Shown here one piece after another: positions 3,911 to 30,888 of a stretch of DNA of 64,000 nt. Positions within the stretch are counted from its first letter, which is position 1. Each line of letters opens with the position of its first letter. The DNA comes from Comamonas sp. lk. GTDB lineage: Bacteria; Pseudomonadota; Gammaproteobacteria; Burkholderiales; Burkholderiaceae_C. The stretch covers positions 16,929-80,928 of the forward strand of contig CAMBNY010000004.1 in assembly GCA_945869165.1 (NCBI GenBank), given 5' to 3'. The notes beneath the pieces are model-generated. The model saw nothing but the letters and a program-made list of their open reading frames with translations. It was not told the DNA's origin and did not search any database. The position numbers and the translations under genes were made by a program.

Positions 3911-4004
3911 CTTTTCCGAAGTTTTTTTGTTTATTCTTAAGAACAATAGTTGCATTCAAAGAATTTTCAATGCATACTCTTCGCTAGAACTTCAGAGACC
4001 TCTC

Positions 4005-5246: not shown

Positions 5247-5256
5247 GGAGCGCACC

Positions 5257-9045: not shown

Positions 9046-9096
9046 ATTTTTTTCCTAAGCACCCCGACCCATTGCCCAAATAAAAGGAGACATACG

Positions 9097-10425
9097 ATGA
9101 ATCGAGACGAGGCGAAGAAATTTTTCAAAGATAACAACGTACGCTATGTGTTGGCGCAGTTTGTAGACATCCATGGCGCGGCCAAAGCCAAAGCAGTTCC
9201 AGTCTCGCACTTTGATGAAGTGCTGGACACCGGCGCGGGTTTTGCCGGCTTCGCGGTTTGGGGCCTGGGCATCCAGCCGCATGGGCCGGATTACATGGCC
9301 CGTGGCGACCTGGGCGCGGTCAGCCTGGTGCCCTGGCAACCGGGTTATGCCCGTATCGTCTGCGACGGCCACGTCCACGGTAAGCCCTGGGAACACGACA
9401 GCCGCGTGGTGCTGAAAAAACAGGTAGCCCTGCTCAAGGAACAAGGCCTGACTTTCTTTACCGGCCTGGAGCCCGAGTTCTCGGTCTTGCGCCGCGACGA
9501 ACAGGGCAACATCGTGCCTTGCGATGCCAGCGACACCCTGCAAAAACCCTGCTACGACTACAAAGCCTTGTCGCGTACCCGCGAGTACATGGATCGCTTG
9601 GTAACCGCCGCTATTGGCTCGGGGCTGGATGTCTACCAGATCGACCATGAGGACGGCAACGGCCAGTTCGAGATCAACTACACCTATGGGGACTGCCTGA
9701 CCTCGGCGGACCAGTTCATCGGCTTCAAGATGGCCGCCGCCGAAATTGCCAATGACATGGGCCTGATCTGCTCCTTCATGCCCAAGCCCTTTAGCAACCG
9801 CCCGGGCAACGGCATGCATATGCACATGTCCATGGGCGACGGCAAGCGCAACCTCTTTGAAGACAAGTCCGACAAGCGCGGGCTGGATTTGTCCACCATG
9901 GCCTACCACTTTTTGGGTGGAGTGCTCAAGCACGCCAAAGCGCTCACCGCGATTTGCTGCCCCACGGTCAACTCCTACAAACGGCTGGTGGTCGGGCGCT
10001 CGCTCACTGGGGCCACCTGGGCACCTGCCTACGTGAGCTACGGCAATAACAACCGTTCCTGCATGGTGCGCATTCCGGGCGGTCGGCTGGAACTGCGCGT
10101 ACCCGACGGCGGCTGCAACCCCTACCTGGCCGCCGCAGCGGTGATTGCAGCGGGCATGGACGGCATGAAAAACCAGATCGACCCCGGTGACCCGGTCAAC
10201 GAAAACCTGTACGAGATGAGCGCTGCCGAGCTGCGCAGCCGTGGCATCGAGACGCTGCCGCAAAACCTCAACGAAGCCATCGACGCATTGGAAGCAGACC
10301 GCGTCATCATGGATGCGCTGGGCCCGGTAGCGCAGACCTTTGTGGACCTCAAACGCATGGAGTGGGTGGAATACATGCGCCACGTGTCCGACTGGGAAAT
10401 CAAAACCTACCTCGAATTTTTCTAA
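9097..10425 (+). CDS. gmaS: Gamma-glutamylmethylamide synthetase (glutamine synthetase family, GlnT/GmaS)
   Basis: GS fold motifs [85 protein letters not shown]; between mgd and mgs genes. Confidence 0.88.
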
Positions 10426-10459
10426 TCCCTTTTTTGTAGGGCTTTGCAAAGGACCGACT

Positions 10460-11371
10460 ATGTGCGGAATTATTGGATTACTGATCAAAAAACCTGCGCT
10501 GCGCAGCGAGTTGGGGCGCTGGATGACGCCCATGCTGATTGGCATGACCGAGCGTGGGCCAGACTCGGCCGGGCTGGCCGTGTTCAGCGACCCGCTAAGT
10601 GACGACCATGCCCGCAAGATCAGCGTGTATTCGGGCCTGACTGCTTTGGGTTCGGGCTTTGACTGGCATGCACTGGCCGCGGCACTGGAAAAGCACCAGG
10701 ATAGCGCGGTGACGGTGCAGACCAAGGACAACCACGCGATTGTCACGGTCACCGGCGACGCGGAGCAGGCACAGCGTTTCATCAAAGCCTACGACCCCCT
10801 GCTACACCTGCTCTCGCTGGGCCGCAGCATCGACTTGTACAAAGACGTTGGCATGCCTGCTGCCGTAGCGCAGCGCTATGACTTTGCGCACATGACCGGC
10901 TCCCATGTGGTGGGCCACACCCGCATGGCCACGGAGTCGGCGGTGACCCCAGACCGTGCGCACCCGTTTACCGCTGGGCAGGATTTCTGCATGGTGCACA
11001 ACGGCTCGCTCTCCAACCCCTACCAGATTCGGCGCATGCTGGAGCCACGCGGCATCAAGTTTGATACCGATAACGACACCGAAAGCGCTTGCCGTTTTAT
11101 CGAGTGGCGCATGCGTGAGGGCGACGACCTGAAAACCGCGCTGGAAACCGGTTTTGACGAGCTGGACGGTTTTTACACGCTGCTCATGGGGACGGAGAAC
11201 CAGCTTGCCCTGATCCGCGACCCCTTTGCCTGCAAACCGGCAGTGATTGCTGAAACAGACGACTATGTGGCCATTGCCTCGGAGTTCCGCTCGCTGGCCC
11301 ATTTGCCCGATATCGATCACGCCTATGTGTTCGAGCCCGCACCCCAGGAGATGTATATATGGAAGGCATAA
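10460..11371 (+). CDS. mgsA: N-methylglutamate synthase subunit A (class II glutamine amidotransferase-like)
   Basis: Ntn-hydrolase N-terminus MCGIIGLL with Cys2; GHTRMATESAVTPDRAHPF; FCMVHNGSLSNPYQIRRML. Confidence 0.88.
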   Translation: MCGIIGLLIKKPALRSELGRWMTPMLIGMTERGPDSAGLAVFSDPLSDDHARKISVYSGLTALGSGFDWHALAAALEKHQDSAVTVQTKDNHAIVTVTGDAEQAQRFIKAYDPLLHLLSLGRSIDLYKDVGMPAAVAQRYDFAHMTGSHVVGHTRMATESAVTPDRAHPFTAGQDFCMVHNGSLSNPYQIRRMLEPRGIKFDTDNDTESACRFIEWRMREGDDLKTALETGFDELDGFYTLLMGTENQLALIRDPFACKPAVIAETDDYVAIASEFRSLAHLPDIDHAYVFEPAPQEMYIWKA

Positions 11372-12051
11372 ATTTCGATCTACGCCAGCAGACGGTGCGT
11401 GATCTCAATGGTTTTTTGCATAGCGCAGAGGGCAAGGCCAAGCGCGGAACCATTGAGGTGCACCACCCCGACGGGGCGCACAGCATCGCTGCCGGGCTCA
11501 ATGCCCCGGTCAAAGTCGTAGTGCACGGCCACGCCGGTTACTACGCCGCAGGTATGAACATGCATGCCGACATCACCATCGAAGGCAGCGCTGGCACGGG
11601 CGTGGCCGAGAACATGATGAGTGGACGCGTCCACGTCAAGGGCTTTGCCAGCAATAGTGCCGGCGCCTCAGCCCATGGCGGCTTGCTAGTCATCGACGGC
11701 AACGCGGCACTGCGCTGCGGAATTTCCCTCAAAGGCGGCAATATCGTGGTGGGCGGCTCTGTGGGCAGCTTTTCGGCCTTTATGGCACAGGCCGGACGCA
11801 TGGTGGTATGTGGCGATGCGGGCGATGGTTTGGGCGACTCTTTGTACGAGGCGGTTTTGTACGTCAAAGGCAGCATCAAGTCATTGGGCGCGGATGCACA
11901 GTTGGAGCCGATGGGGGCCGAGGATCTGCAAATCGTGACCGATTTGCTTGCGCAGGCAGGCATGGGGCAACACAGCGCGGCAGACTTCAAACGCGTCGCG
12001 AGCAAACGCGAGCTCTACCACTGGAACGCCGACGCCAATCAGGAATACTAG
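11359..12051 (+). CDS. mgsB: N-methylglutamate synthase subunit B (GltB GXGXG-domain protein)
   Basis: Beta-helix GXGXG repeats GHAGYYAAGMNMHADITIEGSAGTGVAENMMSGRVHVKG; overlaps mgsA. Confidence 0.85.
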   Translation: MEGINFDLRQQTVRDLNGFLHSAEGKAKRGTIEVHHPDGAHSIAAGLNAPVKVVVHGHAGYYAAGMNMHADITIEGSAGTGVAENMMSGRVHVKGFASNSAGASAHGGLLVIDGNAALRCGISLKGGNIVVGGSVGSFSAFMAQAGRMVVCGDAGDGLGDSLYEAVLYVKGSIKSLGADAQLEPMGAEDLQIVTDLLAQAGMGQHSAADFKRVASKRELYHWNADANQEY

Positions 12052-12061
12052 AAAGAACGCT

Positions 12062-13429
12062 ATGGAAAAACCCATGAATTTTTATAAGTCCGCTTCGCAC
12101 GAAGAATCCTGGGGCTATGACGCCAAGATGTTGCAGTACATCCGCAACGCTGCTGCACATGGCCTGTATGAGATTCGCGGCTTGGGGGCCAAGCGCCAGC
12201 TTCCCCACTTTGACGACTTATTGTTTTTAGCTGCGTCGCTGTCGCGCTATCCCTTGGAGGGCTACCGCGAGCGCTGCACCACCAAGACGGTGCTGGGTAC
12301 GCGGTTTGCAAAAAAGCCCATCGAACTAGACATACCTATCACTATCGCCGGTATGAGTTTTGGCGCTTTGTCTGCCAATGTCAAAGAATCCCTGGGGCGC
12401 GCAGCCACGGAGATGGGTACGTCGACCACCACGGGCGACGGCGGCATGACCAGAGAAGAACGTGATTCTTCTAAAACCTTGGTCTACCAATGCTTGCCTT
12501 CACGCTATGGCTTTAACCCCGATGATGTGCGGCGTGCGGACGCGATCGAGGTCGTGATCGGACAAGGCGCTAAACCCGGTGGCGGCGGCATGTTGCTGGG
12601 CCAAAAAGTCAATCCGCGCGTGGCCAAGATGCGTACGCTGCCGGAGGGGGTGGACCAACGATCTGCCTCGCGCCAACCCGATTGGACCGGCCCTGATGAC
12701 CTGACGATCAAGATCAATGAGCTGCGCGAAATTACCGACTGGGAAAAACCGATTTACGTCAAGGTCGGGGCCACGCGGGTTTTTAACGACGTCAAACTAG
12801 CCGTACATGCGGGTGCTGATGTAGTGGTGGTCGATGGCATGCAGGGCGGTACCGCAGCCACGCAGACATGCTTTATCGAGCACGTTGGCATCCCCACGCT
12901 CGGTGCATTGCGCCAGGCGGTGGATGCACTGGAAGACTTGGACATGATCGGCAAAGTGCAATTGATCATTTCTGGCGGCATACGCACCGGCGCCGATGTG
13001 GCCAAGGCCTTGGCCATGGGCGCCGATGCTGTCGCATTGGGCCAAGGCGTGTTGGTTGCCTTGGGCTGCAACTCGCCAAGTTATATGCAGGATGGCGAGC
13101 ATATGAGTGCGCTGGCCGAGTACGAAGCGCTGGGCACTGCGCCAGGCTATTGCCATCATTGCCATACCGGCAAATGCCCGGTGGGCGTGACGACGCAGGA
13201 TGTCATCCTTGAGCAGCGTCTGCAACCCGATGTCGGGGCTAAACGGCTGCGCAATTACCTGAAGACGCTCAACATGGAGTTGACAACTATTGCGCGCGCC
13301 TGCGGGAAGCAAAACGTGCACCACCTAGAGCGCGAGGATCTGGTGGCTCTAACCGTCGAGGCGGCTGCGATGGCGCGCTTGCCTTTGGCCGGAACCAACT
13401 GGATTCCCGGGCATGACGGTAAGTATTGA
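12062..13429 (+). CDS. mgsC: N-methylglutamate synthase subunit C (FMN/Fe-S glutamate synthase-like)
   Basis: GltB-type FMN domain motifs GAKPGGGGMLLGQKV, DLTIKINELREITDWEKPIYVKVGATRV, GMQGGTAATQTCFIEHVGIPT; Cys cluster CHHCHTGKCPVGVTTQD. Confidence 0.88.
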   Translation: MEKPMNFYKSASHEESWGYDAKMLQYIRNAAAHGLYEIRGLGAKRQLPHFDDLLFLAASLSRYPLEGYRERCTTKTVLGTRFAKKPIELDIPITIAGMSFGALSANVKESLGRAATEMGTSTTTGDGGMTREERDSSKTLVYQCLPSRYGFNPDDVRRADAIEVVIGQGAKPGGGGMLLGQKVNPRVAKMRTLPEGVDQRSASRQPDWTGPDDLTIKINELREITDWEKPIYVKVGATRVFNDVKLAVHAGADVVVVDGMQGGTAATQTCFIEHVGIPTLGALRQAVDALEDLDMIGKVQLIISGGIRTGADVAKALAMGADAVALGQGVLVALGCNSPSYMQDGEHMSALAEYEALGTAPGYCHHCHTGKCPVGVTTQDVILEQRLQPDVGAKRLRNYLKTLNMELTTIARACGKQNVHHLEREDLVALTVEAAAMARLPLAGTNWIPGHDGKY

Positions 13430-13760: not shown

Positions 13761-15320
13761 TCATTTATAAGTAGCCACCATGACTACTCTGCCCAACATC
13801 ACTTGGTAAAGCTCTTCGGTACTCAACTCGGCTCCATCGGATTCACTGGAGCTGACCTTGGCATTTGCAATCGCAGGTAGGCGGTCAACGTGAATGGCGA
13901 AGTTAACGTCTTCTGGGATGAAACCCTCGTCATTTTGGATTTTTTTGTTGTCCAACTTGCCCACGGTGATTCCAACCACATTACCAAACAAGTCAAACAC
14001 GGGACCTCCGGAATTTCCCTTGTTCACTTTCGCAGTCAGCTGGAAGGTGCCTAAGTCGTCTTTCAAGCCCGTGCGTTTGGAGACCATCCCGTTGGTCAGT
14101 GATGGAGAGCCCTCACCCAGCATGTACCAAAGTGGGTATCCCATAACCACCACATTGCGCCCGACCCTGGGTTTAGAGTAAGCACCACCTGGAATAGCCC
14201 GGTCAGCAGGGAGCGCCTTCTCCAGCTCCAGTACCGCAATGTCATCTGACTGCGAAACAAATACAACCCGCACTTTAATGACTTCACCCAAGCCGGTACG
14301 GATAGCGAATTCTTTGCCGTCCTCAATGACGTGCCGGTTGGTAACCACTTTCCTTCCGCCGTCCACGATAAAGCCGCTGCCTCCGGTAATCATCACACCG
14401 GCAGGAAAGGGGAAGCGTTTGACCGGGGGCGCAAAGTCTTGCTCAGCGACTACGGGCGCTGTGCTCTTGGTTGCGCGGGACTGTTGGGCGACAGCTCTAG
14501 GTTCTGGTGGTTTAGGTTCTGGTGGTTTAGCTTCTGATGGTGTGGCTTCGGGCGGTGTGGCTTGCGGCGCAGAGCGACCATTTACCTCTAGCCATGCCTG
14601 GGTAACGTCGCGTCTAAAAACATCACCTTGTTTTTCATATAGCGCGGCAGCTATGCGCTTGAACTGCAGGCCCACTCTCGAGTTACCCGATTTGAATTCC
14701 AGATCAGCGAGTTGGTCGCGCACGGATGCGGCGCCGGGGTGACGTTCTGCAAAGCGCTCTAGTAGGCGCTTGGCCCCTGCACTGTCACCTGCGAGCGCCA
14801 GATACTTGGAATAGGAAATCGCCACACCATCGGAGTCCGGGCGCTCTTTGAGTAAGCCCTGCATCTGGTCACTGGCCTGATTTGCGTTGCCGGTTCGCAA
14901 GGCGATCGCGGCAAGTACGAAATCAGGCTCGGACGAATCGGGGTTAAGCGCCTTTGCAATTTGGACAAATCCACGTGCTTGCTTAAATTGACCCATCTGA
15001 AGATAGGCTTGAGCCGCACCCATGGCGGCCTCGAAGTTCTCCGGGGCCTGGGACTGCGCATCTTCAAAAAATCCCACCGCTTTAGCCGGGCGGTCGATGC
15101 CTAAATATATCTTGCCGGTCAAAAGGCCGATGAGAGCCGCTTCCTGCCGCGTCTCGGGCTCCAGCGTCTTCAGCACGGCAACCGCATCTTTAAAACGCTC
15201 AGCCTCTACCAAAACGCTGGCCTCGCGCAAAGGCGCGACGTTGTCTTGTGCGACTGCCACACCCGCCCACACTGCGCAAGCGTACAACACACACAAAGCT
15301 CGGATTGGCCAGTATGTCAT
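13761..15320 (-). CDS. Secreted TPR protein with C-terminal trypsin-like (S1C-type) serine protease domain
   Basis: Signal peptide; TPR-like N-half; catalytic motifs VTNRHVIEDG (His), SDDIAVLEL (Asp), NKGNSGGPVFD (Ser) all present; Pro/Glu/Ala-rich linker. Confidence 0.85.
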   Translation of the reverse strand: MTYWPIRALCVLYACAVWAGVAVAQDNVAPLREASVLVEAERFKDAVAVLKTLEPETRQEAALIGLLTGKIYLGIDRPAKAVGFFEDAQSQAPENFEAAMGAAQAYLQMGQFKQARGFVQIAKALNPDSSEPDFVLAAIALRTGNANQASDQMQGLLKERPDSDGVAISYSKYLALAGDSAGAKRLLERFAERHPGAASVRDQLADLEFKSGNSRVGLQFKRIAAALYEKQGDVFRRDVTQAWLEVNGRSAPQATPPEATPSEAKPPEPKPPEPRAVAQQSRATKSTAPVVAEQDFAPPVKRFPFPAGVMITGGSGFIVDGGRKVVTNRHVIEDGKEFAIRTGLGEVIKVRVVFVSQSDDIAVLELEKALPADRAIPGGAYSKPRVGRNVVVMGYPLWYMLGEGSPSLTNGMVSKRTGLKDDLGTFQLTAKVNKGNSGGPVFDLFGNVVGITVGKLDNKKIQNDEGFIPEDVNFAIHVDRLPAIANAKVSSSESDGAELSTEELYQVMLGRVVMVATYK

Positions 15321-15775
15321 TCGACTTTGAACACAATTTCTTTTTCAGCGGTACGGCCTTTGCTGTCGCTCACTCGCAGGAGAATCTTGTGGAATCCCAA
15401 TGGGATTTGCAAATTCGAAAGCCTGAGTCCTGTCACCGTTTTGGACGCTTCCTTCAGCAGGCGGTCCGTAATATCGATTTTGAACGCGCCGTAAAAGGCT
15501 TTGAAGCTGGCGAAGTTGAGCTCGGCGCCCCGCTGGGCCTGCATCAATATCTCGAGATTGAATGGATTTTTGACAGGCTGCGCCAGCGCCTCGGCGTCGA
15601 CCACGGATATCACCGGCCCCTGCGGGTTGGCAGACGTTGCATCCACGGCAAGCATGGGGACTTCGGCCTGCGAGGCCAAGGCCTCCTCGGCCGTAACAAG
15701 CTCGGCCGACCACCCTAACTCTGCGCAGGTCAGCAGAGCAGAGCCACAAAAAACCACCAACCACGGCAGACGCAT
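15317..15775 (-). CDS. Small secreted hypothetical protein
   Basis: 152 aa with N-terminal signal peptide; 4-bp overlap with the downstream protease gene. Confidence 0.65.
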   Translation of the reverse strand: MRLPWLVVFCGSALLTCAELGWSAELVTAEEALASQAEVPMLAVDATSANPQGPVISVVDAEALAQPVKNPFNLEILMQAQRGAELNFASFKAFYGAFKIDITDRLLKEASKTVTGLRLSNLQIPLGFHKILLRVSDSKGRTAEKEIVFKVE

Positions 15776-15790
15776 AGCAATTCGACCTCG

Positions 15791-16402
15791 TTACTTCTTC
15801 TTGGCCGCTTCGATTTCTTTCTCAAGCTGCTTCCAGGCTTCGGACGCCTCAACCTTTTTCTCCAAAGCAGAATTTTTCTTCACCTGGCTCGCAACCACTT
15901 TGTTGATCTCTCCGACGGGATAGCGCAGCATGACGAACGCACGGTACTTTCCACCTTCGGCCACAACCTCGTCGCTTTCTCGGACATATCCGGCCACGTT
16001 CACATCCAAAGCCACACTCTCGCCAACTGCTTTGATCTGCGTTTGAAAATCATCGTTGGATTTGTCACTGTCGGTTGCGAAATCACGGATCGTCCCCGAA
16101 ACCCGTACCCCAAGTTGTTGTGCCAATTCTTTGCGGGCCAAATGCATCGCTCTATCGACCGCCATCTGCCGGTTAGTCGATGCTTCGGTGGCCTTTGCGT
16201 ACAACGCATTGGGGTCCAAGGGATTCTTTTTATACCAATCAGGCGTTACCGAGAGCGACTGCTCAACCGTTTTAACTACGGTCTTTTGTTGCTCTTCTTC
16301 TTTCTTCTGCACAAACTCGGGCGTGCCGGGCTTGGGGCTGGAGCAGGCGGCCAGCGCCAGGGCAAGGGCAGCGCTCGCAATTCGGGTTCGGTTCAACGTC
16401 AT
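15791..16402 (-). CDS. LPP20-family-like lipoprotein
   Basis: Lipobox ALALAAC-SSPKPG; internal AVDRAMHLARKELAQQLGVRVSGTIRDFATDSD resembling LPP20 lipoproteins. Confidence 0.7.
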   Translation of the reverse strand: MTLNRTRIASAALALALAACSSPKPGTPEFVQKKEEEQQKTVVKTVEQSLSVTPDWYKKNPLDPNALYAKATEASTNRQMAVDRAMHLARKELAQQLGVRVSGTIRDFATDSDKSNDDFQTQIKAVGESVALDVNVAGYVRESDEVVAEGGKYRAFVMLRYPVGEINKVVASQVKKNSALEKKVEASEAWKQLEKEIEAAKKK

Positions 16403-16425
16403 GGCAATCTCCTGTGTAAATGCGG

Positions 16426-17826
16426 TTAGGTTGGCTTCAGTGTAGCAATTCGTTCTTCAAGCGCTTGCAGATCTTCGGTTGGCAACTGGCCTTGCAGGCC
16501 CATGGCTTTGAGGGTTCGCAGGGCGTTCGCGGCGGCACCGGCATCATTTGCGGCCAGGCTGAGAACCGCAGATTGGCGCAAGGCCTGGGCGGCCAGTGCA
16601 TCATCGCCAGCGCCCACATAGGCCACGCCGATCTGCATGTGCACAAACGGCCTACCAGGCTCCAGCTGCAGCGATCTACCCAGCGCCGCCACCGCGCGCT
16701 CGTAGCTTCCAAGCTGGTTATACGCCACGCCCATGGCCGTAAAGTAGTTGGCAGATGGTTGTGGCGCAGCCGCTGCGGCCTGCACAAAAGCGCGCGCCGC
16801 TTCGGCCGGGCGGTCCAGTTGTAAATAGGCCCGGCCTTGCAAAAAATGCAACTCAGGATTCTGGGGCGCGATAGCTAGGGCTTTGGTGCCCATGGCGAGT
16901 GCGGAGTCTGGCTCGCCTAGGCGCAGTCTTGCGCTGGCGATTTCCTGCATGGCGCGGCTGCTGCGCGGCGCTTTTTGCAGCAGAAAGTCGGCAATCACGA
17001 TGCGGTCCTGCGGCCCTGTCCAAGTAGGCCCGTCCAAGGCTTCCAGCAGCTCACCCTCCAGTTGCGGCAAGGGGTGTTGTTCCACGCTGCTAATAAAGGT
17101 GTGCACCGAAAGCGCAGCACCGCCGCTTGTCGGCACGGTAGCCGCAGCCGTGGTGACCAGCTCGCTATCCGGGGCGTATTTCAAATTCGGAATCGCCGCA
17201 ACCAGTCGGCGCGCAACGTCGTGCGTAGTGCGGGTGAGCTGCTCTTCGCGCACATTCGCGCCCGCAGCCACCGCGCCGCCAATCGCGCTGATCACATCCA
17301 TGGGCATGCCGCCGCCGCGCACCACCGCCGTGTGCTTGCCGCGCCAGATGACCTGTCCGGTACTGACTCGTGTCATGCGCAGGCTTGCCCCCAATCGAAC
17401 GTCGGAGTACACGCCCCAAAAACGGCTGCTGCGCTCAGTCAACTCGCCGGTCAGTAGCGTGTCACAGCCGCCACCCTTTGACACAGCTTGCAGGTTCTGC
17501 GCCTCGTCGCGCGACTTATCGATCAGCGCATCGATTTTTTGAAGCGGGACCAATGCGATGCCGCTGGGGGCTAGGTGGGCATGGATGGCTTTGCGCACAT
17601 CCTCGGCTGGCCCGAATTCGGGGTTGGCGAGGGACAAGGGCATCACGGCCAGACACAGGGGCGGCTTGGCGTTGAAGTCAGCAGAGGTTTCAAAGGCGAC
17701 CACGTCGCCAATCCCGTCACCGCTGCCTGGCTTATCCACATCCCCGGCCACGTACCGGGTGGCACAACCCGATAGCAGCGCTAGGGCCAGTAAAGGCGGC
17801 AGGCGAGCAGTTAGGGTGCTTTTCAA
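16426..17826 (-). CDS. Lipoprotein with CsgG/DUF799-like N-domain and C-terminal TPRs
   Basis: Lipobox ALALLSGC-ATRY; LVPLQKIDALIDKSRDEAQNLQAVSKGGGCDTLLTGELTERSSRFWGVYSDVRLGASLRMTRVSTGQVIWRG; TPR-like C-half. Confidence 0.65.
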   Translation of the reverse strand: MKSTLTARLPPLLALALLSGCATRYVAGDVDKPGSGDGIGDVVAFETSADFNAKPPLCLAVMPLSLANPEFGPAEDVRKAIHAHLAPSGIALVPLQKIDALIDKSRDEAQNLQAVSKGGGCDTLLTGELTERSSRFWGVYSDVRLGASLRMTRVSTGQVIWRGKHTAVVRGGGMPMDVISAIGGAVAAGANVREEQLTRTTHDVARRLVAAIPNLKYAPDSELVTTAAATVPTSGGAALSVHTFISSVEQHPLPQLEGELLEALDGPTWTGPQDRIVIADFLLQKAPRSSRAMQEIASARLRLGEPDSALAMGTKALAIAPQNPELHFLQGRAYLQLDRPAEAARAFVQAAAAAPQPSANYFTAMGVAYNQLGSYERAVAALGRSLQLEPGRPFVHMQIGVAYVGAGDDALAAQALRQSAVLSLAANDAGAAANALRTLKAMGLQGQLPTEDLQALEERIATLKPT

Positions 17827-17833
17827 GAGGAAT

Positions 17834-18700
17834 TCATTTCATTAGTTGGTAGGGTCGGCGTACGACCCGACGTTGGTCCAGCGGTATCTCGCGCAGAATG
17901 GCTTTGAACTCATCCAGCTCGTACGCAGGCAGCCATTTCTGGGGCGACTTGGTGGCCACCAGAATCAGCCATTCGTCGTAGGTCTTCTTAGTGTCCTTGT
18001 AGGCATTTGACCAGCTCGCGGTCAAGCAATAACTTTCGGCGGTCTTGCCTTTATCGGGCGCGGAGAAAGCGCCTTGCGGACAGTTCGGGCGGGTGGCTGG
18101 GCTATCGATGCGGTACACCTTGTTGTCCTCGTTGGGCAGCCAGCCAAATAAAGCAAGGTGGGCGGGCTCGGTGCTTTGGACGTCAAAAAGAATGTCGTCA
18201 TCCACATGGAAACTCTTTCGTGGCACCCTCTCGCGCTGCAGCGTGGCCCGCCGGGGGTTAGGGGTCAGAAAATAGATTTCTGACTTAAGCTGAAAGTTGG
18301 GGTCGGGCTTGCGGGTCGGGACTACCACGTCCACGTCCAGAGTAAGTACGCAGGCCCATGCTTTGTCGCCGCGTTTCTCCGCCTCAACTCTCTTAATGAC
18401 CTTCACGTCACCCCGGATTTCGCCCTCGATAATCGACCAGCTCATCTGGTTGAATTCGCAAGTGTCGTCGGTTTTTCCTGATGCTGAGCGGCACAGCATC
18501 TGCTCCTCGCTAGAAACCACCTCGCCAAGCACTGTCGCAATCGCCTTGCTCTTGGCCCGCTCCTCGGCGCGACGGCAGGCTTCGTTTTGCGAGACTTCGG
18601 CGTTATAGGAATATTCTTCGCTTATCACTACAGCCCGCGCTGTGCAAAGCGTGCATGCCAGAGCGAGGGGGACGAAATATCGAATGTATGGCGGCAACAT
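17834..18700 (-). CDS. Secreted DUF4384-like protein
   Basis: Signal peptide; SEIYFLTPNPRRATLQRERVPRKSFHVDDDILFDVQSTEPAHLALFGWLPNEDNKVYRI pattern of DUF4384. Confidence 0.6.
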   Translation of the reverse strand: MLPPYIRYFVPLALACTLCTARAVVISEEYSYNAEVSQNEACRRAEERAKSKAIATVLGEVVSSEEQMLCRSASGKTDDTCEFNQMSWSIIEGEIRGDVKVIKRVEAEKRGDKAWACVLTLDVDVVVPTRKPDPNFQLKSEIYFLTPNPRRATLQRERVPRKSFHVDDDILFDVQSTEPAHLALFGWLPNEDNKVYRIDSPATRPNCPQGAFSAPDKGKTAESYCLTASWSNAYKDTKKTYDEWLILVATKSPQKWLPAYELDEFKAILREIPLDQRRVVRRPYQLMK

Positions 18701-18738
18701 GGAGGGATGATAGGGGTAAAGATGCCAAGACTCTAGAT

Positions 18739-19548
18739 TTAAGGAGTCCTGGCTAAACGGAATCCGTAGAAGTAGATCCGGTTGTCAGGGTAGCTCCTGC
18801 CGCGGACGGCCGAGCGCAAATTCGCTGGGAAGTTGATCCAAGAACCGCCACGAAGCACCCGAAAGTTTCCAGCACAGCCTGTCGCCCATGCACTGCCATC
18901 AGTTGGCGCTCCACTATAGCTGCCGTGCCAACAGTCTTGCGTCCACTCCCATACATTACCGTGCATGTCGTACAGGCCAAAGGCATTGGGGACTTTCTGG
19001 CCCACTGCCTGCGTCTTGCTCCCACTATAGGCGCTGTACCAAGCGTAGTTGCCTAGCTTTGACTCGTCGTTGCCAAAGCTCCATTCGGTATTGGTTCCCG
19101 CCCTCGCGGCGTACTCCCATTCGGCTTCGCTGGGCAAGCGGTACTTCTGTCCGGTCTTCTGATTCAGCTTGGAAATGAACTGCTGGACTTCATCCCAGCT
19201 GACGTTTTCAACCGGACACTCCAGCCCGCACGCAGAAAAACTGCTTGGATTACTTCCCATTACTTCAAGCCACTGCTTTTGTGTGACTTCGGTCCTGCCC
19301 ATCAAAAAACTACGGATGTATACGGTATGGGGCGGTTTTTCATCATTGTTTTTATCCGAACCCATCGTAAAGCTGCCGGATGGTATCTGGACCATGTCAA
19401 TGGCTTCATTAAAACGCAATTCCAGCGGCGCAAAAGGCCGGTTGCCCGCCTCCTGAGCTATAAGCGCGTGCGGCAGGCTAAACCCGAACAGTGCTATCGC
19501 CAATGCACGCTTGGTCAAGGACTTCACCACGCAGCACAGGGACCTCAT
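18739..19548 (-). CDS. Exported SUMF1/FGE-sulfatase-fold protein
   Basis: MVQIPSGSFTMGSDKNNDEKPPHTVYIRSFLMGRTEVTQKQWLEVMG...RLPSEAEWEYAARAGTNTEWSFGN...NAFGLYDMHGNVWEWTQDCW...FRVLRGGSW. Confidence 0.9.
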   Translation of the reverse strand: MRSLCCVVKSLTKRALAIALFGFSLPHALIAQEAGNRPFAPLELRFNEAIDMVQIPSGSFTMGSDKNNDEKPPHTVYIRSFLMGRTEVTQKQWLEVMGSNPSSFSACGLECPVENVSWDEVQQFISKLNQKTGQKYRLPSEAEWEYAARAGTNTEWSFGNDESKLGNYAWYSAYSGSKTQAVGQKVPNAFGLYDMHGNVWEWTQDCWHGSYSGAPTDGSAWATGCAGNFRVLRGGSWINFPANLRSAVRGRSYPDNRIYFYGFRLARTP

Positions 19549-22079
19549 CGATACACCAAAACCCGGTCGGGGTCGCCAGATAACTGAGGGATTTGAATCC
19601 GGTTCACCGCGCCGGCCTGACGCGCCACCTGGTCTTTTAGGTAGACGTGCATTTCACCCACGGTGATCCGGCCATCCCGGTTCTCGTCGGCCTCGCCCTC
19701 CATCCCGCGCATCAAAAAGTAGCTGAAGATGCCATGCTGTAGCTCAGGGCTAGAGCTCGATATTTGGTCTTGCTGCGCGGCGCTAATGACGGTGAATTCT
19801 GCGGGAAACGCCTCTTGCGCCGATTTGAGGCTAAGGGGTCGCGCACTGGCAACCAGCGTCTCACCGGTTTTAGCGAGGCCGCTGTAACAACTGTCTAAAA
19901 ACAGAGTCACTGATTTAGGTTTAGCCGCCTGCAAAGCCGTGTTGATTTCTGACTGTAAAACGGCGGTCTTGTCCACATAGTCTTTGTCGGTCCCCACTGG
20001 CAATAGGTACAAGGCCTTACCGTCTGCAGACGGCAATCCATGTCCGCTGTAGAACACATAGACATCGGTAGTGGGTTTGACTCTTTGCGGAAGCCAGGCT
20101 TTGAAGGTTCGCAAGATATCAAGCTGCTTGGCGTCCGCATCGATCAGCAGTTTGATGTTCTCGGGCGCGATGCCTAGACCCCGGTTGGCGTAGTTGAAAA
20201 ACTCGCGTGCATCTTCGTTGGCATAGTCAGCGCGCGGAAGATTGGCGTAGTCTGCAATACCGATGATGATGGCCACCGCGTCGCGTTTGGTCTGCACCTT
20301 GACGTTGGCCGCGTTCAGCCTTGCCAGCGTCAGCTTGGTCTCTAAGACTTGACGCGCCACCCTCAAGGTCTTGGTATCCGTGTTGCCGTTGATATCGCGC
20401 CCGATGATGGTGAACACCGTGTCCAGACCCACCCGGGCAACTTTTCGGATGCTATAGATGCCGTCGGCCTTACCACCCATTTCCTCGCCATTGAGTAGCA
20501 AGGAGCTGGTATCGGCACCCGTCTTGACCGTGATTAGCACCTCGCCATTTGCGTCAGGTGGCGAGACGCTGGCCTGCAGGGCAATGCGTACGGCCTTTTT
20601 GGCTTGCTCGCGTTGGGCCAAGTCCACCTCCAGCTTGCGCCGCACATCGGCCAGCGCTTGGCCTTCTGCCTTGTACTTGGCAACTTCCTCAGCCGCTCTG
20701 CGGGATTCGTTTGCCAGGGCAAGTTCCTGGCTGCGGCGTTGCTCCTCTAGACGCTTGCGTAATGTGTCGTTTTCCTCCCGATACAGCACCCGCTCCACCT
20801 GATTGCCATCAACGGCCAACACACTTTGTTGCGTGATAACACCCGCAGCGCCGGTGCTAGGGAGGTCAATCGTCACTTGACGTGCTGCCTGTACGGACGC
20901 TACCCCTTGGCTAGCCACGCCTACTGCACCCGCCCCGCCTCCAATCGCCTTGATCCCTTTGAGCCCGAACTCGCCCCCTTCAGACACAGAAACCTCGGCA
21001 CTCAGTTGCAAATAATCCAAATCGGTGAGGGCGGCTTTGCGCAAGGCAATCGGTGCATCGGCAAATTCAAATCGGGTTGGCGCGCCCCCGTCAATTTTGA
21101 CGTCCAGGTACAAGATCGCACGCTTAGGGTCAAAACTGCTGCCTGCAGTCAGGAGTTGGGGCTGCACCAGCGTGAGGGACATTGCGGTGAACTCTTTGCG
21201 AACCGCGGATGCGATGCGTTCTTTAGCCGCGCGCGCCGCGTTGAGCTGCTGCACATTTTTGTTGCGCTGCTCCACCTGCGCTTTGTAGGTGTTCTGGATT
21301 TTTTCTATCTCCCCTTGGCGCTCGGCACGGGCCGCGGCCAGGCGCTCCTCGAACTCTTTATCGCTTTCCCATTTGTCCTGCGCTAAGGATAGCGCCACGG
21401 GGAACACTGGCGCGGGTATCTCCTTGATATTGATCGAACCCGTATCTTCCAGCCAGCGGCGCAGGGTATTTAGAACGGCTTTGGCGACTATGTCGGTCCA
21501 GACCTTGCTATCAGAGGGCTTTTTTCGCAGGGCGCTGACTTCACTTTCAATCTGTCCCCTCCAGGCAAACGCAATCGCCCGAGCTTCTTCAGCGCGTTTG
21601 GACGATGGCGCAATGTCTGCAACCCATATACCGTCCTCGATGACCGAACCGTTGGCAGCATACAAAACACCTTGCCCGTGCTTCTTGTTCTCTTTGATCT
21701 CGCCAATGTATTTCTCGCCATTGGCGTAGTAATAGGTACCTCGGCCTTGGAATTGGTTGGACTTGAATTGCCCGACGTAGCGGTCGCCGTTGGCTGCCCT
21801 ATAAATGCCCCAACCATCATATTGGTTAGCTTGCCATTCACCCAGATACTTGCCGCCATTGGGGGCTTGGAATTCACCAAAGCAGTTGTTCCAAATGCCT
21901 GTTTCTTTTGGGCAAACAATTAGTTTGGGTGTAATCGTCGCGGAACCTTGCATGCCTGCAGTTAGCTCTTTTTCCCAAGCGGCTCTTTGCGGATCTAAAT
22001 CTTCTGCTGCAAGCGCATTTGCACAACACGCAAAAAACGTGAGGCAAATTAGACGGATGAAACAAATCATATAGCGCAT
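19545..22079 (-). CDS. Exported caspase-like (peptidase C14) protein with N-terminal MORN repeats and coiled coil
   Basis: Signal peptide; MORN units YLGEWQANQYDGWGIY / YVGQFKSNQFQGRGTYYYANGEKYIGEIKENKKHGQGVLYAANG; caspase His motif VYVFYSGHGLPS and Cys motif VTLFLDSCYSG. Confidence 0.9.
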   Translation of the reverse strand: MRYMICFIRLICLTFFACCANALAAEDLDPQRAAWEKELTAGMQGSATITPKLIVCPKETGIWNNCFGEFQAPNGGKYLGEWQANQYDGWGIYRAANGDRYVGQFKSNQFQGRGTYYYANGEKYIGEIKENKKHGQGVLYAANGSVIEDGIWVADIAPSSKRAEEARAIAFAWRGQIESEVSALRKKPSDSKVWTDIVAKAVLNTLRRWLEDTGSINIKEIPAPVFPVALSLAQDKWESDKEFEERLAAARAERQGEIEKIQNTYKAQVEQRNKNVQQLNAARAAKERIASAVRKEFTAMSLTLVQPQLLTAGSSFDPKRAILYLDVKIDGGAPTRFEFADAPIALRKAALTDLDYLQLSAEVSVSEGGEFGLKGIKAIGGGAGAVGVASQGVASVQAARQVTIDLPSTGAAGVITQQSVLAVDGNQVERVLYREENDTLRKRLEEQRRSQELALANESRRAAEEVAKYKAEGQALADVRRKLEVDLAQREQAKKAVRIALQASVSPPDANGEVLITVKTGADTSSLLLNGEEMGGKADGIYSIRKVARVGLDTVFTIIGRDINGNTDTKTLRVARQVLETKLTLARLNAANVKVQTKRDAVAIIIGIADYANLPRADYANEDAREFFNYANRGLGIAPENIKLLIDADAKQLDILRTFKAWLPQRVKPTTDVYVFYSGHGLPSADGKALYLLPVGTDKDYVDKTAVLQSEINTALQAAKPKSVTLFLDSCYSGLAKTGETLVASARPLSLKSAQEAFPAEFTVISAAQQDQISSSSPELQHGIFSYFLMRGMEGEADENRDGRITVGEMHVYLKDQVARQAGAVNRIQIPQLSGDPDRVLVYR

Positions 22080-22310
22080 CGTAGCGAAATATACGTAAAT
22101 TACGGCCCAATCGATTAATTCAATTTCGGGTAATACCCCTTGGGAAAATTGCCTATGTCAACCCAGGCTAAGCCCGCCCCAACATTATCATTGACTTTAA
22201 TTAATGACAATCTACTACGCTAAGTCCTAGAAATTAACTTCCCAAACTTTAAATATTTATAATTCATTCAGTCAGACTAAATATTTTTTAATTTGTTGAC
22301 TAAGTACAAA

Positions 22311-24776
22311 TTATTTGGACAACAACTGACCCCCACCTATCCATTGAGGGTGTTGTTCAAAGGATTGCTTAGATGCATATGCATCCTGTGTCACCGCCTT
22401 GGCAACCACCTCAAATCTCTCACGTCTCAGATTGCCTATGGTGACCGCCCATTCCTTAAGTAGGTGGTAGGTAAAAAGTCGATGGCCCTTCGGACGGAAC
22501 GCAAGCGAAAAATCATTGGGACCACCGCCTGACAATACCGTCATTCGTTGATTCGCGGGTGGCTCAATTCCAGCCGGTTGCAATGAAAAGACTGGCGCAA
22601 CGTCTTTGAATATTAAGGCGCCATTATCCGTACGCCCCGAAAAACAAGTATCTAATACTACGATGATTTCTTTGGCGCGGCTGTTTAATAGTAATTTATA
22701 TATCTCGCTAAGCCTGAAAGCTGAGTTTTCAGAAATGTTTCCAGATGAATCCTGCGGGACCAAAGACGTCGTTCTACCAGAAGGCGTAGGAGCACCATGA
22801 CCCGCGTAATACAAAATTAGGGTGTCGTTTTCAGTGGCTCGCTTGGCTATGGCTTGCAAGCGCTCCATCCAACGCACCCCAGTAGCCTCTTGGTTGGTGA
22901 GCAAATCTAGATTCGCCGGTTCAATTCCATATTTTCGCTGTATCAACTCTGAAAAACTTCTGGCCGATCGATCGGCGAAGACAACTGCTGGTAATTCACC
23001 ATATTCGGCGATACCGGTAACCATTGCCAAGACATTACCATTTTTGGGTTTTGCTGGTATCTTCTGGATGAGTGGATTTAGGTCATCAATAAAATCGCCT
23101 TCGTCCATTTTCTTAATTTTTGCTTCAATGGAACGAATTTCTTCCCGCATGAGATCTTTTTCGACCGTGTTTTGCTTGGCGCTAATATCTGCTCGTAACT
23201 TGCTTAATCGCTCGCGCAAGCGAACCGACTCTAAGTCTTCGGCCAGCACCAGTTCCGTCGCCGCTACACTGGATGGTTCCACTCTACGGGCCGTCGGAAA
23301 CGGTATCAGGTTTTCCGGCTCCATACGAACGGTTTGCAGTACCGGCAACTCCAATCTATCGACATACTTCATCTCCAGAATTCGATTATTTATAACCAAC
23401 TGTGCCGATTTCGGACTAATACTTTTTTCAGTTAATGAAAAATTCACGAAAACACGCGAATTAAATAATTTTTGTTTTAGTTCACGAGCGTCCTGCGAAT
23501 CAATTTCGTCGCTCGTAACCATGTTAAATACCAAATCTGAACGGTCCCCTTGCCTAGCGCCAGCAACTTTTATGATAAATCGCCTGACGTCTGGGTCATA
23601 AACAACCTTGTTTACTACTGGATCGCCCGCCAGGTCACTAATGGTCTCATTGATGATTTGGATCTGCTGCTGATCATTGAGTTTTTTAGGAATTTCACTT
23701 TGGAATTGCTTGAATTTTTTATCAAGCACTTCTACCTGACGGTTAAATTCAGCAACTTTTCTTTTTTGCGATAATATCGCTTCGCGCAAACGGGCATCAA
23801 ATTGATCCTTGGATTCGAATTCGTCCCTTGTCAATTCAACCGCCGAAGACGGGCGAGAGCGTAATAGTGCGGTGTTTTCATTGACAATATTTTTGGGTAA
23901 TTCTGCCATCTTCCGCAATTGAGCCTCTGATCTTTTTTGAATTTCAGAAAATACATCCTGCCAAGTGACAGAATTGCGCCAGCCCGCACGCGGCTCACTA
24001 TTTGTATCTAGACCCAAAATACCGCGATCAGCGGCCCAAGTCGCATTTGCTTTTCTTTGTGTTAAAGCCAGCATTTGCCATATTTTCGGGACCTGAAAAT
24101 TTATACTTTTTTGACTAGAGACCAACTGATCTTTTGCGTTGGATTCGCAACTCACACAAACAACTTGAACTCGAAATGAATCCTGGTTAGTCAGCGCCCA
24201 ATTGAATAATTGATTCGACAAATCAATCCTAAATTTGCCTGGTGTCGCCGCCGTCACTTTTTGCCGTATGGGTTTCCCCAGTCCTTGAATTTCGATTTCC
24301 ACCTCCGTCAATGGTACAGAAATCCACTCAACACGATTGGTGGCAACCGCTCTACCCTTTTCGGTTGTAATGTCAAGTACCTTAACGTCAGTCTGTTGGC
24401 CCAGCGCATTTTCAAAAAAAGATTTCGACTCAATTAAAGGATATAGCCCACCGGTTAATACGGTTCCAATTGCGGCCCCAATGAGGTTGGTTTTTTTTCC
24501 TACGACTTCGCTGGACTGAACCACAGGCGCCTCGAATTCCGGTACGCCAAGTCTACGTAATAGCGTGAACTCCATAACACCACGGTCGTTTATCGATAAC
24601 GTTTCAAAGCCATCGGTTTTTTGCGTTGCCGCGTTAGGATCTAGAAACTTGACCGTGCCGGTTACTTCCGAGACTTGCTTCGTGTATTTGCCACCGCAAG
24701 ACCACAAATATGAGCATACGGTTACCAACAACACCGTGCGTACGAATCGCAAATAGCAGGAACTTTTGATTGTCAT
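22311..24776 (-). CDS. Lipoprotein caspase-like (peptidase C14) protein
   Basis: Lipobox-like SYLWSC-GGKY; His motif LILYYAGHGAPTPSG and Cys motif IIVVLDTCFSGRTDNG. Confidence 0.88.
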   Translation of the reverse strand: MTIKSSCYLRFVRTVLLVTVCSYLWSCGGKYTKQVSEVTGTVKFLDPNAATQKTDGFETLSINDRGVMEFTLLRRLGVPEFEAPVVQSSEVVGKKTNLIGAAIGTVLTGGLYPLIESKSFFENALGQQTDVKVLDITTEKGRAVATNRVEWISVPLTEVEIEIQGLGKPIRQKVTAATPGKFRIDLSNQLFNWALTNQDSFRVQVVCVSCESNAKDQLVSSQKSINFQVPKIWQMLALTQRKANATWAADRGILGLDTNSEPRAGWRNSVTWQDVFSEIQKRSEAQLRKMAELPKNIVNENTALLRSRPSSAVELTRDEFESKDQFDARLREAILSQKRKVAEFNRQVEVLDKKFKQFQSEIPKKLNDQQQIQIINETISDLAGDPVVNKVVYDPDVRRFIIKVAGARQGDRSDLVFNMVTSDEIDSQDARELKQKLFNSRVFVNFSLTEKSISPKSAQLVINNRILEMKYVDRLELPVLQTVRMEPENLIPFPTARRVEPSSVAATELVLAEDLESVRLRERLSKLRADISAKQNTVEKDLMREEIRSIEAKIKKMDEGDFIDDLNPLIQKIPAKPKNGNVLAMVTGIAEYGELPAVVFADRSARSFSELIQRKYGIEPANLDLLTNQEATGVRWMERLQAIAKRATENDTLILYYAGHGAPTPSGRTTSLVPQDSSGNISENSAFRLSEIYKLLLNSRAKEIIVVLDTCFSGRTDNGALIFKDVAPVFSLQPAGIEPPANQRMTVLSGGGPNDFSLAFRPKGHRLFTYHLLKEWAVTIGNLRRERFEVVAKAVTQDAYASKQSFEQHPQWIGGGQLLSK

Positions 24777-24795
24777 TTGAACTGCAATCAGCTGC

Positions 24796-25389
24796 TTAAT
24801 TATTAATGCCTATACCAATATAGAAAGCCTTGGATATCGAGTTTACGCCGAGGTTAAGCGCAAAACCATTAAAGCCGAACATCACGCCTAGATTTACATT
24901 AAGACCAGACTTATCACGACTGGTATCATCGTACCAGTAATCTTTCCGATTGTAATAATACTGTGAATATGCAGAAACTTTTCCGTAACCTAATCCGGCG
25001 TAAGCATGAACAGATCGATAAAACGGAACATTCATGTCCGGCGTAACCAACGGAAACGTAGCGCCAACAGAAAATACTCCAGCGCCGGTTTGTGTGCTCT
25101 TGAAGGTTCCACAAGAATAATAACAATTACCTTCGTAATAATTAGTAGAATCTCCCGGGCTGCCACTGATGCTGCCATTAAAATACAATCCTGGCCCGGA
25201 ATCTTTCAGGCTGTACATACCAAAACCGTAGGCGGGCATTAAGTCCGAATTCGCTGGGGTAGGTGCGTAGTGGAGTTCCATCACACTGGAGTCCGCCAAG
25301 GCACTGCCACTCAGAGCTGTGAGTATTCCAAGACGCGCAATCAAGTGAATCCAACTTGACAACTGAATGCCATTATTTATTTTGTTCAT
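24796..25389 (-). CDS. Secreted/outer-membrane-like hypothetical protein
   Basis: Signal peptide after trimmed start MNKINNGIQ; repeated Gly/Tyr-rich beta-strand-like segments ending in FYIGIGINN. Confidence 0.55.
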   Translation of the reverse strand: MNKINNGIQLSSWIHLIARLGILTALSGSALADSSVMELHYAPTPANSDLMPAYGFGMYSLKDSGPGLYFNGSISGSPGDSTNYYEGNCYYSCGTFKSTQTGAGVFSVGATFPLVTPDMNVPFYRSVHAYAGLGYGKVSAYSQYYYNRKDYWYDDTSRDKSGLNVNLGVMFGFNGFALNLGVNSISKAFYIGIGINN

Positions 25390-28665: not shown

Positions 28666-30888
28666 TCAGCGCTTACCGATTACACCAGCCCCGCGCACTT
28701 CCAAGCGAATGGAATCAAGAACCTCGCCCTTTGCTCCAACAATCTGAACCTCATGGCGACCAGGCCAAGGTAGCCACTGGGCCTGCGGCCCCTTAGCAAA
28801 TGGTTTGCCATCCATCAACCAGTGGTTGACCACCCCATCAGCTCCAAAATGCAGGCGCTGGCGGTCCGGCGGAATATCAGGGTCCAAGGCGATGATGCTG
28901 CCATTTGCCGGATAGGAGATGCGCGCAATCGCACGGTCGCGCCTAGCAGCGTTCGGGCCGCTATCGCCTTGAGACAAGGCGAACTGGCTCTGCTGTGTGC
29001 CCTCGATAAACCACTCCATGCGAGGCGCTTCCGTCGCAAGGTCACTAGCCCGCTCAGTTCCGTACCCTACCGGCAAGGGCGAGGGAGTGCGCGGGAAACT
29101 GACCGCCTGACGCACCAGGCCGGCGGGGGGCAGCGGTGCGCGGCTGGGCGTTGCGCGGTGTAAATACTGCATCACACTGGCCCACACCGGCGCTGCACCA
29201 CTGGTGCCGCTGACATCCCACATCGGTGCGCCACTGGCATTGCCAACCCACACGCCGACGGTATATCGTTCAGAGTAGCCAATAGCCCAGTTGTCACGCA
29301 TATCTTTGCTGGTGCCGGTTTTGACAGCGCTCCAAAACCGGGTCGCCAGCACGCTGTCGCTGCCAAAAGTACGGGCGCGGGCATTGCTGTCGGCAAGAAT
29401 ATCGCCCACGATGAACGCCGCACGTGGATCGACCACGCATGCTGCTGGGGCTGGTTGGACACCGCCCGGCACAAACGTGCTTTGGCTAAAGCAACCACGG
29501 TTAGCCATAGCACGGTAGGCATTTGTCAGTTGTAACAAAGAAACATCCGCACTCCCCAATGCCAGGCTGTAACCGTAATAGTCGCCGGTTTCACGCAGTG
29601 ACAGACCCAAAGCCGTGAGCTGCTGGTGAAACGCGTCTGGAGAAACCATTACCAGCGTGCGTACCGCCGGCACATTGAGGGACGCGCCCAAGGCGGTACG
29701 CGTAGAGACCCAGCCTTTGAATTGGTGGTCATAGTTCTGCGGGATATACAAACCGCCAGAGGTTTGGATTTGCGCTCCAGAGTCATCCAATAAAGACGCC
29801 GCCGTAATACGCCGCTGCGCAATGGCTTGGGCATACAGAAATGGCTTGAGCGTGGAGCCGGGCTGGCGCAGCGCCACCACACCGTCCACCTGGGCAGCGG
29901 CACTGAGCGAACCCGAAGACCCCACCCAGGCCAAGACCTCACCGCTCGCGTTGTCCAAGACTAGGACCGCGCCATCCTCGACATGACGCCCCCGCAATTC
30001 ACGCAATTGCTGCGTAAGGGACTGCAAAGCCATGCGCTGCAATGGCGCACGCAGGGTGGTCCGCAGCACCTGAGGCAATGGTTCGCTGCGCTGACGCAGC
30101 GCCTGCCGCGCCAAATGGGGGGCAATTCCCTCGCTGGCCGCGAATTCGCGCCGCTGCAGCGCAGCCTGTGCGAAATAAACCAAACCTTCGCAATCTATCG
30201 CTCGGACAGAAACGTCCATAGCTTGCAGTACCGTGCATGCCCGTTGCCCGACCTGCGCGCCGGGCGCGTTGGGGGCTCGAACGAGGGCTGCGGCTATCGC
30301 CGCTTCGCGGTTGTCGAGCCCTGAGGCAGCCTTACCGAACAAAGTTCGGCTCAGCGCGTCAATGCCGACGAGCTCACCGCGAAAGGGCACCAAATTCAAA
30401 TAGGCTTCCAATATCTGGTCCTTGCGCCAGCCTCGTTCGAGCATCTGCGCCGACACGGCTTGGCCAATTTTTTGGACAACGCTGCGCCCGCCCGCCACCC
30501 GGCGTAGGTCACCATCAAGCAAGCCCGCCAATTGCATGGTAATAGTGGATGCGCCGCGGGTTTTCTGGCTCCAAAGATTTGCCCACGCAGCAGCCGATAC
30601 CCCCTTCCAATCAACGCCGCTGTGTTCGTAAAACCGCTTGTCCTCACTGAAAACCAAGGCCGTTCGCAAAGCCGGCGATATGTCTTCCAAAGCCAGCCAT
30701 TGCCCCTTACGCACGGTGTCATCAGCGCGGACACGCTGCAAGAGCACACCATCCCGGTCCAGCACCTGGACGTCAGAGGCGCGGTATGCCGCTTTGACGT
30801 CCCCGTAACGCGGCTGCGCAAGGGCTTGTCCAGCCAAGCAGCCCGTGGCCAACAGGCTCAGCGCCAAGCGCGCCAGCGGCATGCGCAT
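28666..30888 (-). CDS. pbpC: Penicillin-binding protein 1C (transglycosylase/transpeptidase)
   Basis: Transglycosylase EDKRFYEHSGVDWKGVSAAAWANLWSQKTRGASTITMQLAGLL; transpeptidase RQPGSTLKPFLYAQA and AVKTGTSKDMRDNWAIGYS. Confidence 0.93.
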   Translation of the reverse strand: MRMPLARLALSLLATGCLAGQALAQPRYGDVKAAYRASDVQVLDRDGVLLQRVRADDTVRKGQWLALEDISPALRTALVFSEDKRFYEHSGVDWKGVSAAAWANLWSQKTRGASTITMQLAGLLDGDLRRVAGGRSVVQKIGQAVSAQMLERGWRKDQILEAYLNLVPFRGELVGIDALSRTLFGKAASGLDNREAAIAAALVRAPNAPGAQVGQRACTVLQAMDVSVRAIDCEGLVYFAQAALQRREFAASEGIAPHLARQALRQRSEPLPQVLRTTLRAPLQRMALQSLTQQLRELRGRHVEDGAVLVLDNASGEVLAWVGSSGSLSAAAQVDGVVALRQPGSTLKPFLYAQAIAQRRITAASLLDDSGAQIQTSGGLYIPQNYDHQFKGWVSTRTALGASLNVPAVRTLVMVSPDAFHQQLTALGLSLRETGDYYGYSLALGSADVSLLQLTNAYRAMANRGCFSQSTFVPGGVQPAPAACVVDPRAAFIVGDILADSNARARTFGSDSVLATRFWSAVKTGTSKDMRDNWAIGYSERYTVGVWVGNASGAPMWDVSGTSGAAPVWASVMQYLHRATPSRAPLPPAGLVRQAVSFPRTPSPLPVGYGTERASDLATEAPRMEWFIEGTQQSQFALSQGDSGPNAARRDRAIARISYPANGSIIALDPDIPPDRQRLHFGADGVVNHWLMDGKPFAKGPQAQWLPWPGRHEVQIVGAKGEVLDSIRLEVRGAGVIGKR

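Follow-up and report, generated by a model that had tools for sequence, protein, structure and literature searches.

Nine neighbouring genes of Comamonas sp. lk, which encode proteases, a lectin-fold protein and lipoproteins that all carry export signals, raise the question of whether they form one system and what that system might recognise outside the cytoplasm. They lie on contig C4 of the MAG G000 (2.64 Mb, 84% complete), within the window, by which we mean the whole 64,000-nucleotide stretch of DNA that was analysed. The preliminary description had listed nine co-oriented minus-strand ORFs, and all nine were found in place on that one strand. They were numbered g1 to g9 by order of transcription (24796-25389 down to 13761-15320).

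24796-25389, minus strand: g1, small predicted exported protein, outside the conserved core
22311-24776, minus strand: g2, the second of two caspase proteins, its lipobox doubtful, outside the conserved core
19545-22079, minus strand: g3, exported MORN-repeat orthocaspase of 844 aa (Pfam C14 and MORN)
18739-19548, minus strand: g4, exported protein of the FGE/C-type-lectin fold, predicted diversified sensor (Pfam FGE)
18754-18852, minus strand: DGR-type variable region of g4 (RGGSW...GFRL), with A-restricted, third-base-frozen variation in six copies
within 18766-18837, minus strand: hypervariable codons of the g4 variable region
17834-18700, minus strand: g5, exported DUF4384-family protein, assigned from the DUF4384 matches of its family members
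16426-17826, minus strand: g6, lipoprotein with a PelC-like N-terminal domain and TPRs (AlphaFold model, PDB matches)
15791-16402, minus strand: g7, lipoprotein (lipobox), weakly LPP20-like
15317-15775, minus strand: g8, small exported protein without known family, conserved within the operon (alignment)
13761-15320, minus strand: g9, exported protein with TPRs and an HtrA/trypsin-like serine protease domain (Trypsin_2)

The two caspase-like proteins, the TPR-trypsin-like protease and the FGE-fold protein of the preliminary description were confirmed by Pfam. Peptidase_C14 was matched by g2 (2.9e-9) and by g3 (5.9e-15), which also carries MORN repeats; Trypsin_2 was matched by g9 (1.2e-24), together with TPRs, and FGE-sulfatase by g4 (2.2e-51). 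In g3 the C14 domain is combined with an intact His/Cys dyad (FYSGHG, DSCYSG) that was invariant across eight homologues, the features by which g3 is classed as a predicted orthocaspase (Peptidase C14); an EF-hand-like loop, DENRDGRITVGE, was read from the sequence after the caspase core. The catalytic triad of g9 is likewise intact (TNRHV, DDIAVL, GNSGGP), and its His, Asp and Ser were invariant in eight homologues, including those from SAR116. Exported MORN-repeat proteins akin to the N-terminus of g3 also occur on two other contigs of the genome, C17 (L012:270-1835) and C77 (L013:3234-5057).

Both reported gene overlaps (15317/15320 and 19545/19548) proved to be real, to measure 4 bp and to recur in other loci. 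The start of g9 overlaps the stop of g8, as it does in L016, L089, L091, L102 and L110, and the start of g4 overlaps the stop of g3; the caspase/FGE overlap was also found in L016, L076 and L089, which gives four species. Promoter and terminator scans of the cluster returned no more sites than shuffled sequence, and the limits of the operon were therefore not set by predicted promoters or terminators. At 28666-36845 of the window the cluster is adjoined by two genes, one of the penicillin-binding protein 1C type and, after it, one for a bacterial alpha-2-macroglobulin, a pairing known from periplasmic protease trapping. On the other flank (3831-13429) are sarcosine-oxidase-like and glutamate-synthase-like genes that, partly as judged by eye, resemble the N-methylglutamate pathway.

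Export was assessed by a sequence heuristic. Each of the nine proteins combines a positively charged start with a hydrophobic core (10-residue mean KD, observed at 1.9-2.6) and either an AxA-like site or a lipobox, in agreement with the proposal that the whole set is exported. Of the two lipoproteins proposed earlier, g6 (LSGC) and g7 (LAAC) have lipoboxes, with a cysteine that was invariant in seven homologues of g6 and nearly invariant among those of g7; the atypical LWSC of g2 adds a third, doubtful candidate. The DUF4384-like label of g5 held for the family, in which eight of ten members match DUF4384 (best 1.4e-11), and not for g5 itself, which has no match. A search of the g5 fold against the PDB gave no confident match, and an early guess of a FlgT-like N-terminus was dropped, being unsupported by the family and fold searches. 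The AlphaFold model of g6 (pLDDT 78.7) resembles PelC in its N-terminal part (9h80_A, 5t10_B, 5t11) and TPR proteins in the remainder; Pfam also found TPRs in g6. PelC is a lipoprotein of an exopolysaccharide export family and crystallises as a dodecamer. The family of g7 gave weak matches, to LPP20 in one member (0.024) and to PDB 5ok8 (0.16). For g8 neither a Pfam family nor a PDB family match was obtained; a paralogue with 34% identity belongs to a further caspase cluster of G000 (L014:7023-7463). Together, the export signals and the PelC-like fold of g6 suggest a periplasmic or outer-membrane location for the set.

To find the genes elsewhere, approximately 85,000 species genomes were scanned with an alignment of g3-type caspases, and the flanking ORFs were compared with all nine proteins. 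Co-occurrence in other genomes was limited to g3 to g9 and did not extend to g1 or g2. The series g5-g6-g7-g8-g9 kept its order, and had a g3-type caspase nearby, in five species, represented by the window, L089 (a Comamonas sp. lk MAG), L091 (Comamonadaceae Jr-7aug17-40) and the Oxalobacteraceae loci L102 and L110. The cluster lacks g6 in G002, a MAG that is 80% complete (same contig as RH-23may17-808), and lacks g6 and g8 in L093. Of two SAR116 genomes, L106 has g5, g6, g7, g9 and a caspase in a different arrangement, and L107 resembles it. A short caspase-DUF4384-g7 version was found in L108, in L109 and in a genus with genomes of 1.5-1.9 Mb. Reduced versions are found in other Burkholderiales as well as in SAR116. 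The named relatives with similar clusters are mostly MAGs of Comamonadaceae, other Burkholderiales and Oxalobacteraceae, and the isolate names of several suggest ponds and reservoirs. The distribution is patchy: with its own genome counted, g5 was present in 2 of 61 close genomes and in 4 of 399 genomes sampled in the order, and among 401 genomes sampled in the family strong matches to the g3 caspase were confined to its own genome. Plasmid searches gave distant matches only for g3 and, for g4, 629 records, every one below 60% identity. On contig C3 of G002 (L016, L075) the cluster is strongly expanded, with no fewer than nine FGE and five caspase genes in the 30 kb around genes of the g5, g7, g8 and g9 types.

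In the loci examined no relative of g1 was found, nor any of g2 beyond 22% identity; g1 had no family in Pfam or NCBIfam, and its composition prompts the guess that it is possibly an outer-membrane barrel. Both g1 and g2 look private to G000, so that the nine genes are unsupported as one set, and the co-conservation proposed in the preliminary description applies to the core of g5 to g9 and a caspase, which keeps its order in several Comamonadaceae and Oxalobacteraceae MAGs and is partial elsewhere. Failure of co-conservation, or negative signal predictions for most members, had been named as grounds for abandoning the proposed system; because the export signals are there and the core is co-conserved, neither was encountered.

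A possible role in recognition is suggested by g4. Its best PDB match was TvpA (2y3c, 2.8e-40), the variable protein of a Treponema DGR; by the heuristic it has a plain signal peptide and no lipobox, and its tail reads RGGSWINFPANLRSAVRGRSYPDNRIYFYGFRLARTP. The tails of six FGE copies, three from G000 and three from G002, were aligned at the DNA level. Among the variable columns at codon positions 1 and 2, A was present in 27 of 28 in the variable region and in 52 of 74 upstream. The third base was kept in 76 of 78 variable codons, while upstream silent sites had diverged. When pairs of codons for different amino acids were compared, the third base was equal in 163 of 183 pairs within the variable region, compared with 138 of 371 upstream, counts that are descriptive because codon pairs are non-independent. 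Nearly all of the fully variable codons end in C and codon 10 always ends in T, which is the expected product of copying AAC and AAT template codons with A changed.

Adenine-directed substitution in a variable region of the C-type-lectin fold, a feature of DGR membership, is thus present in g4. DGR targets typically have, at the C-terminus of an FGE fold, a variable region of about 40 aa that contains AAY codons, and in human FGE the same segment holds the catalytic residues Cys336 and Cys341 (PMC6328139). No cysteine is present in this segment of g4, and it is therefore probably not an enzyme. From these features it is very probable that g4 is a ligand-binding protein that has been diversified.

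Ordinary positive selection together with gene conversion among FGE paralogues might have produced such a pattern with no DGR involved, and both the absence of DGR machinery from the assemblies (see below) and the many paralogues able to recombine would fit. However, selection would not freeze the third base of codons that change the amino acid, gene conversion would homogenise the A-type sites as well, and a T-ending codon 10 among C-ending variable codons points to copying from AAT and AAC. This cause of the variable region was rejected on the behaviour of the third base, and we consider it very improbable.

Several FGE paralogues are present in G000, mostly beside caspases. The variable pattern is absent from the other FGE paralogues of G000 and G002, which may be retired copies. 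Further caspase-FGE cassettes lie on contigs C42 (L011:3003-8252) and C17 (L012:4024-10422) of G000; two FGE copies on C42 have DGR-type variable regions, and the other cassette tails have lost the pattern. Contig C28 (L014:3560-9750) carries an exported caspase cluster with a 1034-aa protein of two FGE domains, the g8 paralogue and a second caspase. The preliminary description had overlooked both the variable region and the scattered cassettes. Its periplasmic or outer-membrane sensing-proteolysis system stands in so far as the set is predicted to be exported and its core is co-conserved; with the hypermutated region and the cassettes included, the likely role moves away from generic sensing of envelope stress and closer to ligand recognition of a diversified kind.

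The machinery for such diversification was then considered. Neither G000 nor G002 gave an RVT_1 match; as these MAGs are incomplete (84% and 80%), the absence of a reverse transcriptase is not final. With three mismatches allowed, a search of 103 genomes of the genus with the variable-region pattern returned just the six variable regions of G000 and G002 and no match in the remaining 101, and with this pattern viral contigs yielded no template. A DGR-type reverse transcriptase was not recognised in the L076 genome or the L082/L089 genomes either. As a positive control, a similar pattern applied to G051, a genome of the same order, found a template-like copy (AAC AAC AAT ... AAC ... AAC) and two variable regions adjoining a reverse transcriptase with a GNLTSQ motif (L133:7950-13974). 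The targets of that DGR are two FGE proteins, one exported and of 337 aa, the other of 1036 aa, with a TIR-like gene near. The exported FGE target is a point of likeness to g4, whereas in the 20 kb read no g3-type caspase or g5-g9 operon lies beside the G051 targets.

Three candidate elements were rejected. The reverse transcriptase of L105 (Paramagnetospirillum marisnigri) has the motif PQGGPMSP and is a group II intron-type fragment; the DGR of the congener G013 (L132:81-3224) has phage-like neighbours and no FGE target, and does not match the template sought here; and in Paramagnetospirillum caucaseum (L134) no connection was visible between the DGR-type reverse transcriptase and the caspase locus. 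The L105 fragment had resembled a linked DGR because it lies next to a gene for a TIR-like protein with a C-terminal FGE domain and a variable-region-like tail (9852-12886), which adjoins g6, g7 and a caspase.

Since neither a template nor a reverse transcriptase was found, DGR membership is claimed for the variable protein only. The machinery would either lie on an unbinned replicon or contig or have been lost recently. If the former DGR of the lineage has been lost altogether, the variable regions would be fossils and the system would now run on fixed lectins. The missing reverse transcriptases and template copy agree with such a loss, as does the loss of the pattern from several FGE paralogues. 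Against this, binning tends to lose plasmids and islands, and the sequences themselves point to continued rewriting. Between g4 of the window and its G002 orthologue, the ratio of changes at positions 1 and 2 to those at position 3 was 17:2 within the variable region, against 14:24 upstream of it (Fisher p = 0.00018). Two G002 copies differ at only two sites in the variable region, both A-type second positions, yet 10 of 38 conserved upstream codons are silently different. The bias in the orthologous pair and the differences within the G002 pair indicate that rewriting continued after the species split. We regard fossil regions as unlikely, and prefer a periplasmic or outer-membrane sensor-protease system whose sensor is hypermutated now or was so recently.

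FGE-fold proteins and caspase-fold proteases also meet in the type IX system, which pairs the outer-membrane protein PorK/GldK with the protease PorU. A secretion or surface-attachment machine of this kind would account for the similarity of g4 to the GldK model (5.3e-27) and to PorK structures (9.3e-17). The GldK score of g4 (95 bits) is, however, below the cut-off of 350, g4 has no lipobox, and Pfam and NCBIfam recognised no further type IX component among g1 to g9; this origin is highly improbable.

The closest parallels are the STAND and VMAP systems, in which DGR-diversified FGE sensors have trypsin- or caspase-type neighbours, as in the STAND-NTPase and VMAP (MoxR-vWA) conflict systems of Thiohalocapsa PB-PSB1 (PMC10907252, PMC7159879). 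Shared with them are an FGE-fold sensor with an A-directed variable region, trypsin and caspase proteases alongside, an effector of these types adjoining the CLec protein, and several systems per genome. In contrast to them, all members of the present set are predicted by the heuristic to be exported, the partner operon consists of DUF4384 and lipoprotein genes, and the incomplete MAGs yielded no reverse transcriptase or template. No MoxR, vWA, VMAP, STAND/NACHT or EAD module was found among g1 to g9 with Pfam and NCBIfam. The set would thus work like a DGR-linked conflict system, yet one without NTPase modules and exported throughout.

Orthocaspase-CLec variable proteins occur in cyanobacteria (PMC7517822). 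These also combine an orthocaspase with a DGR-diversified CLec domain, but are fused and mostly predicted to be cytosolic, whereas g3 and g4 are separate, translationally coupled and predicted to be exported. DGR targets in general have mostly been placed in the cytoplasm, and some outside it (PMC10907252, PMC7159879, PMC7517822). TvpA, an FGE-fold DGR variable protein, is the closest structure to g4, which differs from it in having a plain signal peptide instead of a lipobox, a caspase-operon partner, and a reverse transcriptase and template that are missing from the MAG. Similarly, g6 shares its N-terminal fold and lipobox with PelC/CsgG-like outer-membrane lipoproteins and departs from them in its long TPR domain and in having no exopolysaccharide or curli operon around it. 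PADLOC recognised no defence system, only the caspase and trypsin-type domain models scoring. The literature found on DUF4384 consisted of orthocaspase surveys and unrelated papers, and no paper was found in which DUF4384 shared an operon with these lipoproteins and with caspases. The partner operon appears to be undescribed.

With middling confidence, we propose that g3 to g9 form a sensor-protease system that is exported and associated with the outer membrane, with a sensor diversified in the manner of a DGR target. The codon pattern shows that the C-type-lectin face of g4 has been rewritten by adenine-directed copying from a template. The lipoproteins g6 and g7 are expected to tether the complex to the outer membrane; g6 might do so as a PelC-like ring, as its predicted fold would allow, and g5 and g8 would be exported adaptors. 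Outside the cytoplasm g4 would bind a changing ligand and, once bound, could activate the translationally coupled caspase g3; a cascade might then lead to the TPR-trypsin protease g9, as suggested by the gene pairings and the intact active sites. The most likely use would be to recognise an external agent that keeps changing, for example a phage, a predator or a competitor, and proteolysis of envelope proteins may then alter the surface or kill the cell; this step is the weakest of the scheme. The operon also occurs without a nearby FGE gene (L102, L110), which indicates that the sensor is not obligatory and counts against the proposed system.

The same genes might instead serve a diversified adhesin apparatus with no part in defence, in which g4 and its paralogues would be lectins displayed at the surface for attachment, g6 and g7 an assembly platform at the outer membrane, and the proteases would mature or shed the adhesins. 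The family to which the PelC-like fold of g6 belongs, the several FGE paralogues per genome and the known exported DGR lectin TvpA would all suit such an apparatus. On the other hand, neither a secretion channel nor polysaccharide genes were noticed beside the cluster, and the two protease types are conserved in L102 and L110, where no FGE gene is near. Because of this retention of the proteases, we favour a defence directed at phages, predators or competitors; adhesion we think doubtful, about as much so as fossil variable regions.

Most of the DGR-protease conflict systems described are predicted to be intracellular, and a link with multicellular bacteria has been drawn for them; in the present set the sensor, the proteases and the accessory proteins carry export signals. 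The codon pattern alone allows DGR targets to be recognised, even where a MAG lacks the retroelement. The gene set lets one ask what ligand a diversified bacterial lectin binds, whether an orthocaspase can be turned on outside the cytoplasm, and whether the choice of ligand follows phages or predators. Somewhat more tentatively than the system itself, we suggest that the several hypermutated lectin sensors per genome, together with exported caspases, a trypsin-like protease and a lipoprotein platform, may represent a wholly extracytoplasmic form of diversifying recognition, which would provide free-living freshwater bacteria with variable surface immunity or discrimination.
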